IMG/VR virus record: IMGVR_UViG_3300020421_000171
Coordinates: 1-21,296 of that record
DNA: 21,296 nucleotides
Direction: 5' to 3' (one strand)
Source: a virus
In this document: piece after piece, positions 5,858 to 18,170 of the stretch
How the letters are laid out: the number at the start of each line of letters is the position of its first letter
Numbering within the stretch: position 1 is the stretch's first letter
Made by a program: the position numbers and the translations under genes
Notes under the pieces: model-generated
The model's database searches: none
What the model was told of the DNA's origin: nothing
The model's input: only the letters and a program-made list of their open reading frames with translations

Positions 5858-6262
5858 ATGGGAGCAAGTCTTTACAATTTTGAGATTGAACAAGGCTCAT
5901 CATTCAAAATGTCTTTGATTTATAAAGACAGTGCTGGAGCCGTTATAGATTTAACTGGTTGGTGTGCTAGGCTTACTTGGAGAACTAGTGCCAATTTGAC
6001 ACAAACCTATAAAAGTGGTAATACTGATAAAACTAGTTATGATTTTAATATAGAAGGACCTACAGGTAAAATTAATTTATTATTTCCTGCTAATACTACA
6101 AATGGATTTGATTTTAATACAGCTAAATATGATTTAGAATTACAGTCCGATGAAGATCATTACAGCCAAGGTGGTAAATTTGTTATTAGGCTACTGTATG
6201 GAACTGTAACTATACAGAGGCGATATAGTAAATCTAATCAAGCCTTGGAGTGTAATACCTAA
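5858..6262 (+). CDS. Small beta-rich fibre-associated protein, copy A
   Basis: A 134-residue protein that looks like a single beta sandwich: FEIEQGSSFKMSLIYKD, then DLTGWCARLTW, a hydrophobic strand ending GKINLLFPA, YDLELQ, and a final strand GTVTIQRRYS. It is clearly paralogous to the protein encoded at 17742-18170, sharing the L-T-x-W-C-A-R-L-x-W and YDLELQ blocks. The layout is similar to small Ig-like or baseplate-upper-protein N-terminal domains found near phage fibre genes, but that assignment is tentative. It starts after the terminator, and its stop overlaps the next start (TAATG), suggesting translational coupling. It may be a fibre adaptor or accessory baseplate protein. Confidence 0.5.
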   Translation: MGASLYNFEIEQGSSFKMSLIYKDSAGAVIDLTGWCARLTWRTSANLTQTYKSGNTDKTSYDFNIEGPTGKINLLFPANTTNGFDFNTAKYDLELQSDEDHYSQGGKFVIRLLYGTVTIQRRYSKSNQALECNT

Positions 6263-6575: not shown

Positions 6576-9500
6576 ATGCCAGTTAATAATGTAATTAAAT
6601 TAAGAAGAGGGGATGATTGGAGTAATAATCCTGTATTAGCAGAAGGCGAACCAGGGTTTGATACTACTAATAATATTCTAAAAGTAGGGGATGGAACTAC
6701 AGCATGGAATGATTTAAATCCTATAGGTAGTGGATTAAATTATTTACAATCTCATCCTAATATATCAGCAGCAGCAAGTTCATCAGATAATAGTGGTCGT
6801 ACATATATTCAGGATGTTTTGCTTGATGATAATGGTCATGTTATAGGTCTTAGTACGGCTACAGAATCAGGTTCTACTGTAGAAACAGATACTTTAGCAA
6901 CAGTTACGGCTAGAGGCAATAGCACAACTACAAATTGTATTATCCCCTTTTACTATGCTAATCAAGCCGCCTTTCCTAGTGCTACTACATATCATGGAGC
7001 AATAGCCCATAGTCACAGTGACGGGGCAATGTATTTTGCACACGGTGGTGCGTGGCATAGGTTAGCAAATAGTGATGACCCGGAATCTAATGATTTATCT
7101 TCATCTGTTACTTGGGCTAATGTACCAGATACCAATATTACTGAAAGTTCTGTTATCCAACATACTGGGGCATTTAGAGTTACAGAATCTCAAATAGTAG
7201 ATTTACAAAATTATTTAACATCATTCACAGAAACCAATGATTTGTCTTCAGCAGTTACATGGACTAATGTGCCAGATGCTAATATAACTGAAAGTTCTGT
7301 TGTTCAACACACTGGAGCATTCACAATTAAAGAGTCTCAAGTTGTTGACCTGAAATCTTATTTGACTTCTGAAAGTAATGATTTGTCTGCTGCTGTAGTA
7401 TGGGCTAATGTTCCTGATTCTAACATTACAGAAAGCTCAGTAGTTCAACATACAGGTGCTTTACTAATAACTGAATCTCAGATAGTAGACCTGCAAAATT
7501 ATTTAACTTCTCATCCTACTATAGCATCAGCTGCTTCTTCTTCTGATAATAGTGGTAGAACTTATATACAAGATATTTTATTAGATAGTAATGGTCACGT
7601 AATAGGTATAACTACAGCTACAGAAACTGTTACAGATACTAATACAGAATATACAGCAGGAACAGGACTATCGTTAGAGAGTACGGAATTCAATATAAAT
7701 CCTGACTTAATTAATAGCAGAACAGAAGTGACTAGTGAAGATTCGGATTATTTATTAATTTGGGATGCTACAGATTCACAACTTAAAAAGGTAGATGCTG
7801 GTGAGTTTAGAGGTGGAGGAGGAGGAGCTACTCTGACACAAGAAGAGGTTGAAGATTTTGTAGGAGGTATGGTCACTGGTAATACTGAAACAGGTATCAC
7901 CGTAACTTATCAAGACGCTGACGGAACCTTAGATTTCGTAGTAGCATCACAGACAGATGAAAACTTTACTACAGCAGATCACAGTAAACTAGATGGTATA
8001 GAAGCAGGGGCAGACGTTACTGACACTGCTAATGTTACTTCTGCTGGCGCTCTTATGGATTCAGAAGTCACAAACTTATCGCAGGTTAAGGCATTTGATT
8101 CCTCAGATTACGCTACTGCCGCCCAAGGTACCAAAGCTGATACAGCACAACAGCCACCGTCTGAAGGAGCTTTTGTAGACGGAGATAAAACTAAGCTTGA
8201 TGGTATCGAAGCCTCTGCTGACGTTACTGATACAGCTAATGTTAATGCAGCTGGTGCTGTAATGAACAGTGATACTACAACTGTTGATATGAGTTTTGTC
8301 ATAGACGAAGATAATATGACATCAAATTCAGATACCAAGGTTCCAACACAGCAATCTGTTAAGGCTTATGTAGATGCCAATGGTGGTGGAGGCGGTATTT
8401 CTAACATTGTAGAGGATACAACTCCACAGTTAGGTGGCAATCTAGATGCACAATCAAATAATATTAGTTCAGTAGGATCTCTGACCGCTACATCATTGAT
8501 TAAATCTGGTGGCACATCTTCACAGTTCCTTAAGGCTGATGGAAGTGTTGATACTAATACTTATCTTACTTCGTTTACAGAAACCAACGACCTGTCTGCT
8601 GCTGTTACGTGGACTAATGTTCCAGATGCAAATATTACACAAGGCTCTGTAACACAACATCAAGCTGCTTTGAGTATTACGGAATCACAGATCAGTGATT
8701 TACAATCGTATTTAACTTCTTATACAGAAACAGATACTTTAGCTAATGTTACATCTAGAGGAAATACGACTACCACTACTTGTGTCATACCTTTCTTATA
8801 TGCTAATCAGGCTGCTTTCCCAAATGCCAGTACATATCATGGGGCTATAGCTCATAGTCATAGCGATGGTGCGATGTATTTTGCTCATGGTGGTAATTGG
8901 ATTAAATTAGCAAATGATAGTGATATATTAAATGAAGAAAAAGTAGAGGACTTTGTTGGAGGTATGTTAACAGGTAATACTGAGACAGGTATTACAGTTA
9001 CATATGACGATAGCGATGGAACTATTGATTTTGTTGTGGCTAGTCAAACAGACGAAAATTTTACAACTGCTGATCACAGCAAGTTGGATGGTATTGAAGC
9101 AGGTGCAGACGTTACTGACACAACCAATGTCACTACTGCTGGTGCTTTGATGGACTCCGAGGTTACAAATCTGTCACAAGTTAAGGCTTTTGATTCCTCA
9201 GATTACGCAACTGCTGCACAAGGAACAAAAGCTGATAGCGCACAGCAACCACCATCAGAAGGTGCGTTTGTAGACGGAGACAAAACTAAATTAGATGGTA
9301 TTGAAGCCAACGCAGATGTTACAGATACGGCAAATGTGACTTCAGCTGGAGCATTAATGGACAGCGAGTTAACAGACTTAGCTGGTGTTAAAGGAGTCAC
9401 GATATCTACATTGCAAGTGAAGCCATCTGAAGGAGCATTCGCTGATGGAGACAAGACAAAGCTAGATGCTATTGAAGCAGGTGCGAATGTAACAGACGCA

Positions 9501-12500
9501 ACTAATGTTGACGCAGCTGGTGCAGTAATGAATAGTGACACTTCTACTGCTAGCATGAGTTTTGTAGTTGATGAAGACAATATGTCGTCTGATTCAGATA
9601 CTAAGGTTCCTACACAACAGTCGGTAAAAGCTTTTGTTGAGAATGCTGGTTATTTAACTGCACATCCAAATATTAGTGCTGCAAATTCTTCTGATAACAG
9701 TGGTAATACTTTCATACAAGATATTACTCTAGATAGTAATGGACATGTTACTGATATAGCTGTAGCTACAGCTACTGATGGAGGTGGTGGAGGAGGTATT
9801 AGTAATGTAGTTGAAGATACAACACCACAACTTGGCGGTGACTTAGGTCTTAATTCTAAAGATATAACCGGTACGGGTCATATAGACATAACTGGATCTG
9901 GACACTTTAGTGCAAAAGTTGAAGCTGATAGTTTTGTTAAAGATGGTGGTACATCTAGTCAATTCCTAAAGGCTGACGGTAGTGTAGATACCAATACGTA
10001 TTCTACTACAGACACACAGCTTACAGAAGAACAGGTAGAAGACTTTGTTGGAGGTATGGTCACAGGAAATACCGAGACAGGCATTACAGTAACATATGAC
10101 GACAGCGATGGTACATTAGATTTCGTAGTAGCTAGTCAAACTGATGAAAACTTTACAACAGCAGATCACGCTAAACTTGATGGTATAGAGGCTAGCGCGG
10201 ATGTAACCGATACGGCTAATGTTACTAGTGCAGGTGCTTTGATGGACTCAGAAGTAACAAACTTGTCGCAAGTTAAAGCTTTTGATTCTTCAGATTACGC
10301 CACCGCTGCACAAGGCACTAAAGCTGACAGTGCTCAGCAACCCCCATCTGAGGGAGCATTTGCAAATGGAGATAAAACCAAATTAGATGGTATTGAGGCT
10401 TCTGCTGACGTAACAGACACAGCGAATGTCACTAGTGCTGGTGCTCTTATGGATTCTGAAGTTACTAATCTGGCACAAGTTAAAGCTTTTGACTCCTCAG
10501 ACTATGCTACTGCCGCACAAGGAACAAAAGCCGATAGCGCACAACAGCCACCATCAGAAGGTGCATTTGTTGATGGAGATAAAACTAAACTAGACGCAAT
10601 TGAGGCTAATGCTACTGCTGATCAAACAGACGAAGAAATACAAGATATCGTTGGGGCTATGCTCTCAAGCAATACCGAAACAGGTATTACAGTAACTTAT
10701 CAAGATGCTGATGGCACTATTGATTTTGTTGTTTCGTCTCAAACAGATGAGAATTTTACTACAGCAGACCACAGTAAGTTAGATGGTATTGAAGCTAGCG
10801 CAGATGTCACAGACACAGCTAACGTAACCTCTGCTGGTGCTTTGATGGATAGTGAATTAGCCAGTATTGCTGACGTTAAAGCACTAGATCAATCAGTTAT
10901 AGCAGGTGCTTCGCCTAACTTTGCTACTACTAATATGACGGATGCATCTGATAAAAGATTTATGACAGATGCTCAAGAAACTAAATTGGATTCAGTTGAG
11001 AGTAGTGCAGATGTCACAGATACTGCTAATGTAACTGCCGCAGGAGCCTTAATGGACAGTGAACTAACTGACCTTGCAGGCGTTAAAGGTGTTACAATTT
11101 CTACGTTACAATCTAAACCTTCAGAGGGTGCTTTTGCTAATGGTGACAAAACTAAGCTTGATGGTATTGAAGCCAATGCTACAGCAGATCAGACAGATGA
11201 AGAAATACAAGATATTGTTGGAGCAATGGTTTCTAGTAACACCGAGACAGGAATAACTGTCACATATCAAGACGCTGATGGAACCTTAGACTTTGTAGTT
11301 GATCATGATGCTGCTAATAATTTTGTAGCTAACGAACATATAGATCATACTAGTGTTACTTTAACGGCTGGTGATGGTCTTACTGGTGGTGGGGACATTA
11401 GTGCTAATAGAACATTTGCTGTTAGTGTTGATGATAGTACTATAGAAATTAATAGTGATGCTTTAAGAATTAAAGATGGTGCAATAACTTCTGCTAAGAT
11501 AGGGGCAGGTGGGTTTGTCTTTAATGAAGCTGGCGCTTCTGTTGACTTTAGGGTTGAGGGAGATACTGACGCAAATCTATTATTTATAGATGGAAGTACA
11601 GATAGAGTTGGTATTGGTACAAATGCACCAGCATATCTTTTAGATGTTGATGGAGCAATAGGAGCAGATAGTATCACAGTTGGTGAATCAAATAAATATC
11701 TTAGTATGTTACGATCCACCGGAGGTACTTTTGGTATTGGTCGCATCCATGAACTACTTGGAACGTTTGAAGTTATGGTTGGTGCAAATACTGCCGCAGT
11801 AGAAATTACTAACCATAGTGTAGGTAGTCCTGTTGTAACTATTAATCCTGCTGGTATAGATATGGATTTTATAGTAGAAGGAGATACAGATACAGATTTA
11901 TTATTCTGTGATGCTGGAAATGATATTGTACAAATTGGCAAATTAAATATCAACGGAGCTTTTACACTACCTACAACAGATGGTTCTGCAAATCAGATAT
12001 TAAAGACCGATGGTTCTGGAAACGTTTCGTGGGCTGCTGATGGAGGAAGTGGAAGTTCTCTTACTGAAGAAGAAGTTGAAGATTTTGTTGGAGGCATGGT
12101 TACTGGGAACACAGAAACTTTTATTACTGTTACTTATGAAGATTCTGATGGAACACTTGATTTTGTTGTTCCCGTAAAAGATGAAGATAATATGGCTTCT
12201 GATAGCGCTACACACTTAGCTACACAGCAGTCTATTAAAGCTTATGTCGATGCAAATGCTGGTGGTGGTAGTACAAGTGTTGCTGCAATAAGTGCTAATG
12301 CTACCATTTCTTCTGATGTTAATTTGGTTACCACTGCTAATACAGATAGAACAGTAACTCTTCCCAGTGTATCTTCTGGTAAAATAGTTCGTATTAAAAA
12401 GGTTGATGCTGGTACAGGAACTGTGATTATTGCAAGAAGTGGTTCATCGACTATTGATGGTGCTACACAAGTTGCTTTGTATTCACAATTTGAAAGTATG

Positions 12501-12539
12501 ACAATTATTTGTGATGGCACAAATTGGCATGTATTTTAA
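6576..12539 (+). CDS. Giant modular repeat tail fibre/adhesin (1987 aa)
   Basis: A likely trimeric fibre or receptor-binding structural protein. Residues 1-50 (KLRRGDDWSNNPVLAEGE, then LKVGDGTTAWNDL) match the N-terminal domain found in major-tropism-determinant-like and many marine phage fibre proteins. The body is built of repeat families: NDLS..VTWTNVPD..IT units near residues 172, 221, 268 and 671; a 60-residue His-containing block at 106-165 and 721-780; EEVEDFVGGM..NTETGITVTY units near 423, 787, 1151, 1353, 1542 and 1831; and ADVTDTANV..AGALMDSE units with KLDGIEA. Residues about 1640-1700 carry FRVEGDTDANLLF and RVGIGTNAP, a common marine fibre motif. The C-terminus (TDRTVTLPS to DGTNWHVF) resembles known fibre ends. 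No S74 peptidase chaperone domain is seen. Gly-rich hinges occur near 415, 605, 1070 and 1905. Starts after ATAGGAT, about nine bases from ATG. Confidence 0.85.
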   Translation: MPVNNVIKLRRGDDWSNNPVLAEGEPGFDTTNNILKVGDGTTAWNDLNPIGSGLNYLQSHPNISAAASSSDNSGRTYIQDVLLDDNGHVIGLSTATESGSTVETDTLATVTARGNSTTTNCIIPFYYANQAAFPSATTYHGAIAHSHSDGAMYFAHGGAWHRLANSDDPESNDLSSSVTWANVPDTNITESSVIQHTGAFRVTESQIVDLQNYLTSFTETNDLSSAVTWTNVPDANITESSVVQHTGAFTIKESQVVDLKSYLTSESNDLSAAVVWANVPDSNITESSVVQHTGALLITESQIVDLQNYLTSHPTIASAASSSDNSGRTYIQDILLDSNGHVIGITTATETVTDTNTEYTAGTGLSLESTEFNINPDLINSRTEVTSEDSDYLLIWDATDSQLKKVDAGEFRGGGGGATLTQEEVEDFVGGMVTGNTETGITVTYQDADGTLDFVVASQTDENFTTADHSKLDGIEAGADVTDTANVTSAGALMDSEVTNLSQVKAFDSSDYATAAQGTKADTAQQPPSEGAFVDGDKTKLDGIEASADVTDTANVNAAGAVMNSDTTTVDMSFVIDEDNMTSNSDTKVPTQQSVKAYVDANGGGGGISNIVEDTTPQLGGNLDAQSNNISSVGSLTATSLIKSGGTSSQFLKADGSVDTNTYLTSFTETNDLSAAVTWTNVPDANITQGSVTQHQAALSITESQISDLQSYLTSYTETDTLANVTSRGNTTTTTCVIPFLYANQAAFPNASTYHGAIAHSHSDGAMYFAHGGNWIKLANDSDILNEEKVEDFVGGMLTGNTETGITVTYDDSDGTIDFVVASQTDENFTTADHSKLDGIEAGADVTDTTNVTTAGALMDSEVTNLSQVKAFDSSDYATAAQGTKADSAQQPPSEGAFVDGDKTKLDGIEANADVTDTANVTSAGALMDSELTDLAGVKGVTISTLQVKPSEGAFADGDKTKLDAIEAGANVTDATNVDAAGAVMNSDTSTASMSFVVDEDNMSSDSDTKVPTQQSVKAFVENAGYLTAHPNISAANSSDNSGNTFIQDITLDSNGHVTDIAVATATDGGGGGGISNVVEDTTPQLGGDLGLNSKDITGTGHIDITGSGHFSAKVEADSFVKDGGTSSQFLKADGSVDTNTYSTTDTQLTEEQVEDFVGGMVTGNTETGITVTYDDSDGTLDFVVASQTDENFTTADHAKLDGIEASADVTDTANVTSAGALMDSEVTNLSQVKAFDSSDYATAAQGTKADSAQQPPSEGAFANGDKTKLDGIEASADVTDTANVTSAGALMDSEVTNLAQVKAFDSSDYATAAQGTKADSAQQPPSEGAFVDGDKTKLDAIEANATADQTDEEIQDIVGAMLSSNTETGITVTYQDADGTIDFVVSSQTDENFTTADHSKLDGIEASADVTDTANVTSAGALMDSELASIADVKALDQSVIAGASPNFATTNMTDASDKRFMTDAQETKLDSVESSADVTDTANVTAAGALMDSELTDLAGVKGVTISTLQSKPSEGAFANGDKTKLDGIEANATADQTDEEIQDIVGAMVSSNTETGITVTYQDADGTLDFVVDHDAANNFVANEHIDHTSVTLTAGDGLTGGGDISANRTFAVSVDDSTIEINSDALRIKDGAITSAKIGAGGFVFNEAGASVDFRVEGDTDANLLFIDGSTDRVGIGTNAPAYLLDVDGAIGADSITVGESNKYLSMLRSTGGTFGIGRIHELLGTFEVMVGANTAAVEITNHSVGSPVVTINPAGIDMDFIVEGDTDTDLLFCDAGNDIVQIGKLNINGAFTLPTTDGSANQILKTDGSGNVSWAADGGSGSSLTEEEVEDFVGGMVTGNTETFITVTYEDSDGTLDFVVPVKDEDNMASDSATHLATQQSIKAYVDANAGGGSTSVAAISANATISSDVNLVTTANTDRTVTLPSVSSGKIVRIKKVDAGTGTVIIARSGSSTIDGATQVALYSQFESMTIICDGTNWHVF
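6891..7070 (+). repeat. His-containing fibre block, copy 1
   Basis: Encodes residues 106-165 of the giant fibre. It shares 49 of 60 residues with the copy at 8736-8915, including YHGAIAHSHSDGAMYFAHGG. The HSH (H145, H147) plus H156 recall the HxH motifs that hold iron ions in the T4 gp37 fibre tip, although metal binding here is inference. Confidence 0.8.
7842..12180 (+). repeat. EEVEDFVGGM/ADVTDTANV repeat array in fibre gene
   Basis: Six copies of a roughly 37-residue unit (EE...DxVGxM..xNTETxITVTYxDxDGTxDFVV) start at 7842, 8934, 10026, 10632, 11199 and 12066. Interleaved are FTTADH.KLDGIEA..ADVTDTANV units and four copies of a 40-codon block starting at 8094, 9189, 10281 and 10488. Amino acid identity between copies is very high while synonymous positions differ widely. 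The array makes up most of the shaft, and unit number could change by recombination. Confidence 0.85.
8736..8915 (+). repeat. His-containing fibre block, copy 2
   Basis: Encodes residues 721-780 of the giant fibre and is the partner of the block at 6891-7070. The eleven residue differences lie outside the central His-rich core, which is identical over at least 16 residues, suggesting functional constraint on that core. Confidence 0.8.
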
Positions 12540-12571: not shown

Positions 12572-14260
12572 ATGAAAAGCATAATACTACAAACAAATGA
12601 CACGGCTATTACTGCTGATGATCAATTAGGACAAATACAATTTGCTGCATCTTCTGAATCTGATGGAAGCGCAGCACAGGATGTGTCTGCTAAAATCGAA
12701 GCTGTTGCTGAAGCAGCTTTTGGATCAGCTTCGCACTCTACAGCTCTTACATTTTCTACTGCTACTACAGACGCAAATGCTCCCGCAGAAAGAGTTAGAA
12801 TTAGTAATGATGGAAAGGTTGGAGTAGGTAGTAACAGTCCTTCATTTAAATTACATGTTAATGGAGATATTGGATTAACTAATGAAGGATTTTATGCTTC
12901 TCCTACAGGTGTCAAAATAGGAACAGATGGCGTACTTATTAATGATGGTCAGACTACATTATCACATGGTAATTTTAGTGCTGATGGAGATGCACAATCT
13001 AGTTCTTATATCCTAAGATGCACAACCACAAATGCTACGTTTACTACAGCGCAAAATAATGGAGCTGATATAGTAGTGCCTAATGATACTAGTATTATGT
13101 TTATAGCTAATATTACTGGTAGAAGAACTGATCAAGTTAATGCCTCCACTAACGACAATGCTAGTTATACACTTATAGGATTATTACATAATGATGGAGG
13201 AGGTATAGCTCTATTAGGTAGTGTTTCAAAAACAGTAATAGCAGAAACTGATAGTAATTGGGATGTTCAAGCTACTGTTACAGGAACTGGTTCTTCTGGT
13301 AGCGATAAATTAAATATACAATGTAAAGGTGCCTCGTCTAAAACTGTAAACTGGGTAGTTAAACTAGAAACGGTAGAGGTTAAGGGTGGAGAACATGTTG
13401 CAGGTTCCGCACTGTTTACTAGTAGTCAAAGTAGTACTGGAACAGGATCAGCAGCAGATCCATTTATTGTTGCTAGTGATCAAATAGCTAATGCTAGTGT
13501 ATTTACGGTTGCAGATATTACAGATCAAAAATATATGGTTATTCGAGCAGATTGTGGAGTTAATGACCAGAGTGGTCAAGATGATAATGCATTTTTTAAC
13601 TTTGTAAAAGGTGGTAGTATTGTAGATACTGTCACTGCTCCGCAGTCGGCAGTGACTTACTTTTACAGTTGTATTGCAAGCGTGAACGATGTTTATGGAT
13701 TCTCAACAACTGACAATCCTGGAGATATGGACATAACTAGTTGTCGAGCATTTATAGTGACAGCTGCTTCAAGTTTTACTATTACAAAAATCAGTGATGG
13801 TAGTAATGGAACTGGTTGGGCTAAGTTGCAAATCCCTAGAGCTGATACATTCCCTACAGCAATTGGGAATCATGGAGTTATGTTAAAGATTTCTGGCAAT
13901 GTAGTTAGAGGAGGTAGTAATAGAGCTTTTACAGGAGCAAAATGTGTTATAACGACTATTAGTTCCGGAGTGACTGATCCAACCCCTAGACAAAAGTATA
14001 ATACTGTTACGCGAAATACTACTACTGCAGGTAATGGTAGTGCTCATGGAACAGAAACCGTTGCCGGTAATAGTGTTCCAATCAGTTTCAAAGCTAGTAA
14101 CGTTGGTAGTGATAGTTTTATAGAGTTTAGAAATAATAATGCTTATGCTATGAACAATCTTACTGTAACTGTAGAAGCATTAACAGATGAATTTGAAGAA
14201 TGTTCAGTTAGTAGTAACTCTTTAACAATGTCTACTGGTACATGGGGAGATGATGACTAA
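12572..14260 (+). CDS. Fibre-like structural protein, long paralog (562 aa)
   Basis: The first 275 or so residues are closely similar to the whole product of 15944-16822, from MKSIILQTNDTAITA through the RRTD..NASTNDNA block to KLNIQCKGASSKTVNWV. The segment RVRISNDGKVGVGSNSP followed by LHVNGDI is the GIGT-type repeat widespread in marine phage fibre proteins and in proteins ending in chaperone domains. Residues about 280-562 form an extra beta-rich domain found only in this copy, with several Cys residues and no family I recognise. It could be a distinct receptor-binding head. The start has a good purine-rich site (AGAAGGAAAG). Its stop codon overlaps the start of the oxygenase-like gene (TAATG), so the fibre and cassette are translationally linked. 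Confidence 0.7.
   Translation: MKSIILQTNDTAITADDQLGQIQFAASSESDGSAAQDVSAKIEAVAEAAFGSASHSTALTFSTATTDANAPAERVRISNDGKVGVGSNSPSFKLHVNGDIGLTNEGFYASPTGVKIGTDGVLINDGQTTLSHGNFSADGDAQSSSYILRCTTTNATFTTAQNNGADIVVPNDTSIMFIANITGRRTDQVNASTNDNASYTLIGLLHNDGGGIALLGSVSKTVIAETDSNWDVQATVTGTGSSGSDKLNIQCKGASSKTVNWVVKLETVEVKGGEHVAGSALFTSSQSSTGTGSAADPFIVASDQIANASVFTVADITDQKYMVIRADCGVNDQSGQDDNAFFNFVKGGSIVDTVTAPQSAVTYFYSCIASVNDVYGFSTTDNPGDMDITSCRAFIVTAASSFTITKISDGSNGTGWAKLQIPRADTFPTAIGNHGVMLKISGNVVRGGSNRAFTGAKCVITTISSGVTDPTPRQKYNTVTRNTTTAGNGSAHGTETVAGNSVPISFKASNVGSDSFIEFRNNNAYAMNNLTVTVEALTDEFEECSVSSNSLTMSTGTWGDDD
13631..13656 (+). other. Intragenic hairpin in long fibre paralog
   Basis: GTCACTGC and GCAGTGAC form a perfect eight-base-pair stem around a ten-base loop inside the coding sequence, encoding part of the unique C-terminal domain. 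The downstream TTACTTTTACAG is only weakly T-rich, so a terminator is unlikely. A coincidental structure or a pause site are the alternatives. Confidence 0.3.
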
Positions 14261-14667
14261 TGGATGATAGGTCTTTATCTGTTAAACCATTAAGAGGTAA
14301 TAAGGGCTGTCGTCGTGCGGATATTCCAGATTTCTTGGCAGAAAATAGAAACATAACAGGTGGTTTTGAATATGGTCCTGGAGATCAACAACAATGGCAC
14401 ACTAATTGGAGTATGCCTGGAGCAAGATGTTATCTTGTTTGGTCTGAAGATGGCAATAGTGGTATGAGGTTTATAAGAGATGGTGAGATTGTAACATCTA
14501 AAGATGTAGTAGGATGGCAATATAGAATATTTAATGTTCCTCAACCTCATTGCGTATTCGCAGACTGTAAAAGATTTAGTTATGGATGGTATTTAGAAGA
14601 AACAGATAATGAAATTATTTTTCCTATAGGACTTGAAAATGCTGAAGCTGTATTACAATTTGCCTAA
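14260..14667 (+). CDS. 2-oxoglutarate/Fe(II) oxygenase-like protein, copy A
   Basis: A 135-residue protein that looks like the core double-stranded beta-helix of the 2OG-Fe(II) oxygenase superfamily. The segment [24 protein letters not shown] carries the first metal-binding position (H47, with N49 at the HxD place). PQPHCVFADCKRFSYGW gives the distal His (H97) and the Arg (R105) that usually binds 2-oxoglutarate. Such enzymes hydroxylate proteins, nucleic acids or small molecules. Asn instead of Asp at the second ligand is unusual and could reduce or change activity. The paralog at 15470 has the same Asn. The copy is short, lacking about 35 N-terminal residues compared with its paralog. GGGGAGA lies nine bases before the ATG. 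The substrate cannot be read from sequence. Confidence 0.58.
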   Translation: MDDRSLSVKPLRGNKGCRRADIPDFLAENRNITGGFEYGPGDQQQWHTNWSMPGARCYLVWSEDGNSGMRFIRDGEIVTSKDVVGWQYRIFNVPQPHCVFADCKRFSYGWYLEETDNEIIFPIGLENAEAVLQFA

Positions 14668-15202
14668 TGGTAAAAGTTTTGCTCATGTTAGCAGAAGTTG
14701 TACAAGCACACTTGCTGCACATGCCTTAATTAATTTTTATCCTGATTTGCAAGAACAATGGAAAAATGATGGAGGATCACCTCAAAAGTATATGCCAGAA
14801 ATTTGGGCTAATAGATTAGCTCCTCACTGTTTAGTTATGGTAAGAGATCCTATAGAAAGACTTACTAGTTTAATATCTAGAAACGGATATCATTATGATA
14901 TAGTGGAAGCTGTTTTATCAGCTTGTCATAGACGAGCAGAAATACCTAGAGATATATCTAGAGAATTAACGATACTAACGTTTCATCATATAGCACCCCT
15001 ATCATGGATAGCAGATAATGATTCTCAATTTTGTCTGTTTCCAGATGTAAAAAAGGCTTGTGAAATTTTAGAGATGGAATACTATCCAGAAATACAACAA
15101 AATATTTTAAAAAATCCAAGAGTAGATGATTTAGCAGTAGATAGATTTTATAATTATCTACAAGACAGTATAGGTATTTACGAGGCTTTAAAGGAGAAGT
15201 AA
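14639..15202 (+). CDS. Sulfotransferase-like protein (187 aa)
   Basis: The N-terminus [19 protein letters not shown] aligns with the 5'-phosphosulfate-binding loop of sulfotransferases, where the usual hxPKTGGTS precedes a helix. Residues 66-81 ([16 protein letters not shown]) match the 3'-phosphate-binding motif RDPxxRxxS, with R69 and S77 in place. The C-terminal [17 protein letters not shown] resembles the closing helix of the family. Together they suggest PAPS-dependent transfer of sulfate to a sugar, protein or lipid. The usual loop Lys is replaced by Arg (R19), and the protein is shorter than most family members (often 250-300 residues), so activity is uncertain. I prefer the ATG at 14639, which has ATAGGA upstream, over a TTG at 14633. 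It overlaps the end of the oxygenase-like gene. Confidence 0.6.
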
Positions 15203-15203
15203 T

Positions 15204-15476
15204 ATGCCACATGTAGTAGCTGAACCATGTTTTGCTTGTAAGTATACAGACTGCGTTGTAGTTTGTCCTGTTGAATGTTTTTATGAAGGACAGCAGATGG
15301 TCTATATTCATCCAGATGAGTGTATCGATTGTGAAGCATGTGTTCCAGAATGTCCGGTAGAAGCTATTTTTAGTGAACAGGATTTACCAGAAGAATGGAA
15401 ACCTTTTGCAGAGTTAAATCGTGAAATGGCACCACAAATGCCTGTTATTACAGACAAAAAGGATCCTTTATGTTAG
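15204..15476 (+). CDS. fdxA: Seven-iron ferredoxin, FdxA/Azotobacter FdI type
   Basis: A 90-residue ferredoxin carrying low-potential electrons. The cysteine pattern matches Azotobacter vinelandii FdI shifted by one residue. C9, C17 and C50 correspond to the [3Fe-4S] ligands, and C21, C40, C43 and C46 to the [4Fe-4S] ligands; C12 and C25 match its non-ligand cysteines. Diagnostic segments are [18 protein letters not shown] and [19 protein letters not shown]. The region after the clusters ([10 protein letters not shown], then ITDKKDPL) also follows the FdI family, but the protein ends at that point with a Cys, without the roughly 15-20-residue tail of the bacterial protein. GGAGAAG precedes the start, which lies one base after the sulfotransferase stop. 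Phage ferredoxins known from cyanophages are mostly plant-type [2Fe-2S], so this type is unusual. Redox partner unknown. Confidence 0.92.
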
Positions 15477-15934
15477 TTGATAAAATAGATCCTATACAAA
15501 TTATTAATAATTTAAATACTGAGGCCTTTATGGATTGGGGTGAGGATTTTTCTTTTGATGATTTATTTAAAAAACCAGACTTACATAATGAGAGATATAA
15601 AGCTGCTTTTGTTAAAAGATATAAACCATATAAAAATAATAACATAGCAAGAGAATTATTTGGAGATAGAGTAACTAATTTTATAGTATATCCTCCATAT
15701 GGTGGTATGAGTTGGCATACAAATGGCCCTAAAAAGTCTAAAAGAATGTATATAAGTTGGTCAGAAGATGGTAATAGTGGGATGAGTTGGTATGACACAG
15801 AAAAAGACGAGCTAATAGTAGATCAAGATGATCAAGGTTGGAATGTTAGATTTTTTGATATACCAACTTGGCATTGTGTTTGGAGTAAATGTTATAGACT
15901 TGCCATAGGATATAATGTAATGCGTGAGGTGTAA
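15470..15934 (+). CDS. 2-oxoglutarate/Fe(II) oxygenase-like protein, copy B
   Basis: A 154-residue paralog of the 14260-14667 product. Shared blocks are [20 protein letters not shown] and HCV...C.R...GY. Proposed metal ligands are H83 and H135, with N85 in the place of the usual Asp. R143 is the likely 2-oxoglutarate Arg. The N-terminal 60 residues are extra relative to copy A and may help close the fold. The start overlaps the ferredoxin stop by seven bases, with AAAAAGGAT upstream, so the two are translationally coupled. Such oxygenases need Fe(II) and 2-oxoglutarate and usually do not require a ferredoxin, so proximity to the ferredoxin does not prove partnership. Could be a catalytically altered cupin instead. 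Confidence 0.58.
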
Positions 15935-15943
15935 TAAGTAACT

Positions 15944-16822
15944 ATGAAAAGTATAATATTACAAACAAACGATACAGCGATTACTGCTACAGATCAGCTA
16001 GGGCAGATACAGTTTGCTGCTTCTTCTGAATCTGATGGAAGTGCAGCGACAGACGTATCTGCTAAGATAGAGGCCGTTGCTGAAGCTACTTTCGCTGCCG
16101 CTTCTCATTCAACAGCAATTGCTTTTTCTACTGCAACCACCGATGCTAATGCACCATCTGAAAAAGTTAGAATTAGTAATGATGGTTCTTTAGGTATTGG
16201 TACAACCAGTTCTTCGTATAAAGTACATATAAATGGAGATGTAGGTCTTACAAACGAAGGTTTCTATGCCTCTCCTACTGGAGTTATGTTGGGTGTTGAC
16301 GGTTTTTTATATAATGATGGTCAAACAACATTATCTCATGGAAGATTTGGTACTGATGGGGATGCTCAAAATAGCACTTACATTCTAAGAGGTACTACAA
16401 CTAATGCTACTTTTACCACAATTCAAAATAATGGAGCCCATGTTAAATTAGCTTCTAATAGAAGTATGATGTTTACTGCTCATATAATAGGAAGAAGAAC
16501 AGATTCAATTACTGGTTCTACAAATGATAATGCAGCTTATATTTTAAAGGGATCTATATTTAATGATGGATATGGTGCTGCTATAGTAGGTAGTGTGACA
16601 AAGACTGTTATAGCTGAAACTGATAGCAATTGGGACGTCCAAGCTACTATTACTGGTGGAGGAGCTGGTCAAACAGACCAAATTAATATACAGTGTAAGG
16701 GTGCTAGCTCTAAAACTGTAAATTGGGTAATTAAATTAGAATTATTAGAGGTTGGAGGAAATGTCACTGGATATACAGAAGCCAATATATTAGAAAATGT
16801 CAGTCCTACAATTATACCATAA
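15944..16822 (+). CDS. Fibre-like structural protein, short paralog (292 aa)
   Basis: Aligns with the first 275 residues or so of the 12572-14260 product along its length, with MKSIILQTNDTAITA, RVRISNDG-like and GIGTTSSSYKVHINGDV blocks, and ends in a short unique tail (ENVSPTIIP). It lacks the extra C-terminal domain of the long copy. The RISNDGSLGIGT segment is the GIGT-type marine fibre repeat. It follows the second oxygenase-like gene by nine bases, with only a weak purine-rich stretch upstream. The two paralogs therefore bracket the four-gene cassette. Probably a fibre component or an alternative adhesin lacking a tip domain. Confidence 0.68.
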   Translation: MKSIILQTNDTAITATDQLGQIQFAASSESDGSAATDVSAKIEAVAEATFAAASHSTAIAFSTATTDANAPSEKVRISNDGSLGIGTTSSSYKVHINGDVGLTNEGFYASPTGVMLGVDGFLYNDGQTTLSHGRFGTDGDAQNSTYILRGTTTNATFTTIQNNGAHVKLASNRSMMFTAHIIGRRTDSITGSTNDNAAYILKGSIFNDGYGAAIVGSVTKTVIAETDSNWDVQATITGGGAGQTDQINIQCKGASSKTVNWVIKLELLEVGGNVTGYTEANILENVSPTIIP

Positions 16823-17741: not shown

Positions 17742-18170
17742 ATGGCAGCAGCAGATTATAGCTTTACTATAGAAAAAGGTACAGCTTTCGTAATTTCTTT
17801 TGAATATAAAGACGACAATAATAATGCAATTAATTTAACTAATTGGTGTGCTAGATTAAGATGGAAAGACAATAATGATGCTATTACAACATTTAATAGT
17901 AATCATACAGGTAATGACTATGAGTTTGTAATAGAACCCTTAACTGGTCAGATAACCTTAAAGATACCAGCTTCTGTAACAGCTGCCTATAGTTTCACAA
18001 ATGCATCTTATGATTTAGAATTACAAGAACCTAACGACCTATATAGTGGTGGAGGTAAAAAAGTATTTAGAATTTTACAAGGAACTATTACAACCATAGA
18101 ACGTAATGTTTCTGATACTGATGCTTTTAATTGTAATTTTGATTCTCAAGATGATTGTGAAACCTGTTAA
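17742..18170 (+). CDS. Small beta-rich fibre-associated protein, copy B
   Basis: A 142-residue paralog of the 5858-6262 product. Shared features are FTIEKGTAF, YKDDNN, NLTNWCARLRW, GQITLKIPA, YDLELQ and the GTITTIERNVS final strand, with a Cys-containing tail (CNFDSQDDCETC) unique to this copy. Both copies directly precede a fibre gene and both overlap the following start by one base (TAATG), which suggests a shared job in fibre attachment or assembly. A GAGGA site lies upstream. The family is not certain; a baseplate-associated Ig-like fold is plausible. Confidence 0.5.
   Translation: MAAADYSFTIEKGTAFVISFEYKDDNNNAINLTNWCARLRWKDNNDAITTFNSNHTGNDYEFVIEPLTGQITLKIPASVTAAYSFTNASYDLELQEPNDLYSGGGKKVFRILQGTITTIERNVSDTDAFNCNFDSQDDCETC

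Follow-up and report, generated by a model that had tools for sequence, protein, structure and literature searches.

The window analysed here is the complete IMG/VR record IMGVR_UViG_3300020421_000171, a viral DNA of 21,296 bases; no sign of a marine origin of the virus was found in the features tested. Our subject is a row of four small genes lying between two tail-fibre genes, and above all its first two members, which encode an oxygenase-like protein (OxyA) and a sulfotransferase-like protein (ST). A preliminary description of this DNA had proposed that the four genes form one modification or metabolic cassette travelling with the adhesins. All four genes proved to be real, in the order and at the coordinates given there, including the TAATG junction at the end of the upstream fibre gene. 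The features of the locus are as follows.

12572 to 14260, plus strand: upstream fibre Fib1, an open reading frame of 562 amino acids, paralog of the gene at 15944 to 16822, included in the tail statistics and the proposed substrate.
14234 to 14262, plus strand: tail codons of Fib1 (TGTWGDDD), its stop codon and the TAATG coupling junction to OxyA.
14260 to 14667, plus strand: OxyA, oxygenase-like, 135 amino acids, with an HxN...H...R motif (H47, N49, H97, R105).
14639 to 15202, plus strand: ST, sulfotransferase-like, 187 amino acids, with the motifs VSRSCTST and RDPIERLTS.
15204 to 15476, plus strand: seven-iron (FdI/FdxA-type) ferredoxin, 90 amino acids, a lineage-specific passenger.
15470 to 15934, plus strand: OxyB, a paralogous oxygenase-like protein, 154 amino acids, of the solo type also seen in the records G009, G012 and G013.
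15944 to 16822, plus strand: downstream fibre paralog Fib2, 292 amino acids.

Both paralogies pointed out in the preliminary description were reproduced. Fib1 and Fib2 were 74% identical over their first 272 amino acids, and OxyA and OxyB were 38% identical over 81 amino acids (E 1e-16). The C-terminal half of Fib1 is unique and ends in an acidic tail, ...GTWGDDD, and Fib2 has neither this half nor the tail. The start codon of ST is the ATG at 14639, inside the OxyA gene, so that the two genes overlap by 29 nucleotides (nt), and the ferredoxin and OxyB genes overlap by 7 nt.

Relatives were gathered by searching viral contigs with profiles of the oxygenase and of ST. The OxyA-ST pair was present in nine contigs, the window and eight others. 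All nine STs (the window and eight from the ST profile) had an oxygenase gene directly upstream at a fixed overlap, which was exactly 29 nt in six contigs, counting the window, and 13 nt in three distant ones (L041 to L043). The OxyA proteins of the six are of one close type. We refer to the six as type-1 pairs and to the three as type-2 pairs. Conversely, ST followed OxyA in 6/6 cases of type 1. The gene directly upstream of the pair was fibre-type in eight of the nine and was coupled to it within −11 to +8 nt; the exception, G005, has a fusion of CTP_transf with a mannose-6-phosphate-isomerase cupin in this place. When the window was compared by BLASTP with each of G001 to G008, essentially only the oxygenases and ST were common to both. 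These eight records belong to three additional, unrelated groups: G001, G004, G006, G007 and G008; the T4-like G002 and G005; and G003. Codon positions 1 and 2 were more conserved than position 3 in both OxyA and ST. The pair was not found in 50,697 annotated phages at the sensitivity of tblastn, which returned distant single oxygenases only, and relatives of OxyA or ST were absent from the genome_contigs collection (84,980 species) at the sensitivity used. The existence of a mobile module of two genes, OxyA and ST, that is linked to fibres is well supported, and the recurrence of an oxygenase-sulfotransferase pair beside fibre genes of several unrelated lineages, which the preliminary description had named as a check, was observed.

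The third gene of the row had been described as a bacterial seven-iron ferredoxin, and this identification was confirmed. The protein matched Azotobacter FdI over residues 3-89 (E 3e-33), as well as phrog_8732, and kept every cluster cysteine (C9, C17, C21, C40, C43, C46 and C50) in the pattern of a [3Fe-4S] and a [4Fe-4S] cluster. Compared with Azotobacter FdI (seven-iron, FdxA type) it is shortened at the C-terminus, having 90 instead of 106 amino acids. A close relative at L003:9641-10102 (76% over 34 amino acids, cut at the contig end) comes after a gene similar to those of A-type Fe-S carriers. The window ferredoxin was found in 0/13 records carrying the oxygenase, and FdI-type ferredoxins of annotated phages have unrelated surroundings. 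We therefore rejected it as a member of the module; it is a separate acquisition. That all four genes constitute one redox and sulfur auxiliary metabolic cassette is suggested by their contiguity in the window, with ends that touch or overlap, but given the distribution of the ferredoxin we consider this highly improbable. As a conserved unit the four-gene set is largely refuted by the missing ferredoxin, and OxyB-type genes also occur alone. The preliminary description had itself named independent scattering of the genes among relatives as an observation that would speak against it, and for the set of four such scattering was observed. The absence of the ferredoxin from the relatives and the solo occurrence of OxyB-type genes indicate that the travelling unit consists of the fibre C-terminus, OxyA and ST.

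Solo OxyB-type genes, without ST, were found in G009, G012 and G013, each sharing 4-11 nt with the 3' end of a fibre gene. In phmmer comparisons the C-terminal domains of these three fibres were homologous to one another (E 2e-8 or better), and the phage of G013 is otherwise different. At L023:8808-10255 a gene for a C-type lectin (Lectin_C, E 3e-13) overlaps a gene for an HxN oxygenase by 4 nt, and this lectin is a second kind of adhesin coupled to the oxygenase family. Oxygenases without a fibre neighbourhood occurred in three groups, namely L014 to L016, phage C48C1 and LR756511. In C48C1 a NifU-like gene directly adjoins that of the distant oxygenase.

OxyA, OxyB and ST had no significant match in Pfam or PHROG, the ferredoxin being the only one of the four proteins placed in this way, and none of 14 oxygenase members matched a Pfam 2-oxoglutarate (2OG) family. 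The structural model of OxyB (predicted local distance difference test score, pLDDT, 82; predicted template modelling score 0.79) matched cupins, HIF prolyl hydroxylase 2 (PHD2) and other double-stranded beta-helix proteins, with a probability of 1.0 for cupins and PHD2. The model supports a double-stranded beta-helix fold for OxyB. The family shares with the PHD2/prolyl 4-hydroxylase type this fold, a His at the end of strand II, a His on strand VII and an Arg on strand VIII. It differs in having HxN instead of HxD, in a length of only 125-170 amino acids and in the missing Pfam 2OG match; a single-sequence hhalign comparison with the PHD2 segment also gave no match. The HxD/E...H facial triad of 2OG-Fe(II) oxygenases is absent, and all aligned members, including those of two distant phages, have HxN...H. 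The Arg expected to hold 2OG is invariant, eight residues past the distal His (R105 in OxyA, R143 in OxyB), and Y, W, H, N, H and R are invariant throughout the family, again with the two distant phages included. The earlier label of 2-oxoglutarate-oxygenase-like proteins thus holds for the fold, as modelled for OxyB, and fails for a canonical 2OG oxygenase, given the HxN...H metal motif. The oxygenase profile also showed a weak likeness to B-type mannose lectins (4pdt, E 4e-4). We rejected this candidate because the matches were short and lay around WHTN, and because the model is a beta-helix with cupin and oxygenase fold matches. The oxygenases linked to ST carry a C-terminal extension with P-I/V-x-L near the end, EIIFPIGL in OxyA, which its ST-linked relatives have in common and the solo members do not possess.

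A precedent for chemistry lacking the Asp ligand is human AspH, an active 2OG oxygenase that holds iron by two His without a carboxylate and has Asp residues of proteins as its substrate (PMC10947486, PMC13168262). The phage proteins differ from AspH in keeping an Asn at the third position, and the likeness is one of analogy rather than of established sequence kinship. OxyA and OxyB might instead be non-enzymatic metal- or ligand-binding proteins of the fibre tip, or chaperones, of oxygenase-fold descent. Their place right behind the fibre, the change of D to N in the facial triad and their size of 125-170 amino acids all agree with this. Small fibre-accessory genes that encode adhesins or chaperones are familiar from T-even phages (gp37-gp38 and Tfa), where, as here, a small gene dedicated to the fibre lies directly behind the fibre gene. 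Those T-even proteins do not have enzyme-like folds. Against a non-enzymatic role, the residues expected to bind Fe and 2OG, two His and the Arg on the final strand, stay unchanged among proteins of about 25-75% identity, also where the gene does not stand beside a fibre, and a chaperone would leave the obligate pairing with ST unexplained. We regard a non-enzymatic role as improbable.

The resemblance of the second gene to sulfotransferases, also part of the preliminary description, is supported by its motifs, by a sub-threshold domain match in one relative and by a phage sulfotransferase whose fold the model matched. The best viral fold matches of the ST model (pLDDT 86) were proteins named sulfotransferase, and the protein of cyanophage P-SSM7 matched with a Foldseek E-value of 1e-4. 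In 9/9 STs, the first strands are followed by (V/I)S(R/H)S(C/G)(T/S), which we take to be the 5'-phosphosulfate loop and which aligns with the P-SSM7 protein. A motif resembling the 3'-phosphate-binding site, R-(D/N)-P, contains R69 in 9/9 STs, and eight residues further on S77 is present in 7/9, with N in the remaining 2/9. One ST relative matched Sulfotransfer_2 with 20.0 bits, below the cut-off of 22 bits, and the probable P-SSM7 protein passes this cut-off. The probable P-SSM7 gene (GU071103, 17127-17717, 196 amino acids, protein E3SP23) was picked by its length and by the best profile match in the parts of the genome that were scanned. In hhalign the ST profile matched its product with E 0.003, and the alignment spans both motifs. 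The likeness of ST to the P-SSM7 protein thus consists of the fold match and two aligned motifs; unlike ST, the P-SSM7 gene sits behind the baseplate hub gene gp5 and has no adjoining oxygenase.

The fibres in front of the pairs were then compared at their C-termini. The five fibres ahead of type-1 pairs end in GDDD, DDCDD, ESDDD, DDRDGD and DDCSD, and the sixth upstream protein of type 1, the cupin fusion of G005, ends in EDDIERRD. At least three Asp among the last eight residues together with a terminal Asp was found in 6/6 upstream genes of type 1 and in 0/244 other coupled genes, a count that covers the 250 coupled upstream genes of these records; the test was framed after the pattern had been seen, so that it gauges how rare the pattern is in these genomes and is no pre-registered prediction. 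We dropped G005 as an independent acidic tail. The C-terminal domains of the type-1 upstream genes show little or no detectable homology to each other, apart from a possible remote relation between L021 and L029. The L018 fibre shares 75% identity with that of L021 along 176 amino acids of the body, and both the C-terminus and the enzyme behind it differ. The simplest reading of these sequences is that the type of enzyme matches the C-terminus of the fibre.

The acidic tail could be a functionless by-product of coupling signals, or a short stretch brought along with OxyA by recombination, which would be compatible with a real module. The tail codons occupy the position required for the ribosome-binding site of OxyA, and those of the window contain GGAGATGATG. 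But the tail is missing from other equally coupled genes (0/244), those of the solo and type-2 loci included, and the six tails differ in codons and spacing. We find this account unlikely.

Another possibility is that the substrates of the pair are molecules of the host or the environment, for example surface glycans, with receptor masking or superinfection exclusion as the purpose, or small metabolites, and that the pair owes its place beside fibres to these loci being hotspots for accessory genes. In G005 the pair stands behind a CTP_transf/cupin gene of sugar-nucleotide type and behind a gene related to the weakly GH130-like one that the fibre locus of L006 also contains, so that enzymes of glycan type do accumulate there. 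Among the non-significant PDB fold matches of ST were heparan sulfate and glycopeptide sulfotransferases. Against this, an unchanging overlap, a place directly behind a fibre in 8/9 and an enzyme type that co-varies with the fibre C-terminus would not be expected of a free accessory gene. We see this alternative as rather unlikely. As a separate observation, in the fibre regions of two unrelated phages (L006:13693-15923 and L030:7018-10001) a TPR/FkbM-like gene stands behind a weakly GH130-like one, and in L030 the CTP_transf/cupin fusion comes next.

We propose that the mobile OxyA-ST module serves the phage's own tail fibre, whose C-terminal part is translated together with the module and is also its target, and we judge the case for this to be evenly balanced. 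OxyA, in this view a very small protein with a double-stranded beta-helix and kinship to 2OG oxygenases, would place hydroxyl groups on residues in or close to the C-terminus of the fibre. The foremost candidate is the acidic Asp tail, which could be the substrate itself (giving beta-hydroxy-Asp, by analogy with AspH) or a docking tag. ST would then move sulfate from host 3'-phosphoadenosine-5'-phosphosulfate onto the new hydroxyl group or another one nearby, and modification of the tip could affect how the adhesin folds, binds its receptor or is protected. OxyB would be a second oxygenase, of the solo type. More specifically, the module may be a self-contained, mobile system for the hydroxylation and sulfation of fibre tips, with a recognition tail that travels along and a previously undescribed His-x-Asn...His iron site; this fuller version we offer tentatively and with some doubt. 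The preliminary description had suggested decoration of fibres or host surface molecules, or an adjustment of host redox and sulfur metabolism. Fibre decoration fits better, because the pair keeps its place behind fibres and co-varies with the fibre C-terminus, and a role in redox or sulfur metabolism fits less well.

Several points weigh against the proposed action on the fibre. The linkage of the genes speaks for the fibre as substrate without being proof. The fold search of the PDB with ST gave no significant match, and no member of the ST family scored above the Pfam cut-off (best 20.0 against 22 bits). The fibres of type-2 and solo oxygenase loci have no Asp tail, which implies that the tail is not a general substrate, and the acidic end of G005 is probably native to its mannose-6-phosphate-isomerase-like domain. 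Furthermore, prolyl 4-hydroxylase is inactive when its Asp ligand is replaced (D414A/G/H; PMC2767507). The change from HxD/E to HxN loses the ligand that this enzyme needs, and by this analogy OxyA may be non-catalytic.

Other features of these genomes were also recorded. The window encodes, at 6576-12539, a fibre of 1987 amino acids built of many near-repeats, for example ADVTDTANVTSAGALMDSE blocks. Paralogs of the phrog_1084 family (44% identity) lie at 5858-6262 and 17742-18170, one at each end of the fibre block, and the second copy also shows a weak relation to L-shaped tail fibre assembly. At L041:6626-8569, a gene of the structural region encodes 648 amino acids compared with 308 in L043, with a LAGLIDADG insertion (E 5e-8) near an NSW motif, possibly an intein.

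Literature searches on fibres, sulfotransferases and hydroxylases found no report of such a system (subscription papers were outside their coverage). To our knowledge, the chemical decoration of a phage's own host-binding fibres by such an enzyme pair has not been reported. Phage sulfotransferases and 2OG-oxygenase-like proteins are usually classed as auxiliary metabolic genes; the role of the former has been called unclear (PMC10580990), and a role in DNA repair was proposed for phage 2OG oxygenases (PMC9146016). The fixed position of the pair behind fibre genes in four unrelated lineages offers a concrete and testable substrate for both kinds of enzyme. If the fibres are indeed hydroxylated and sulfated, the sequence of a fibre would not be enough for a full prediction of host range, and the HxN family would broaden the definition of an active iron site in oxygenases.

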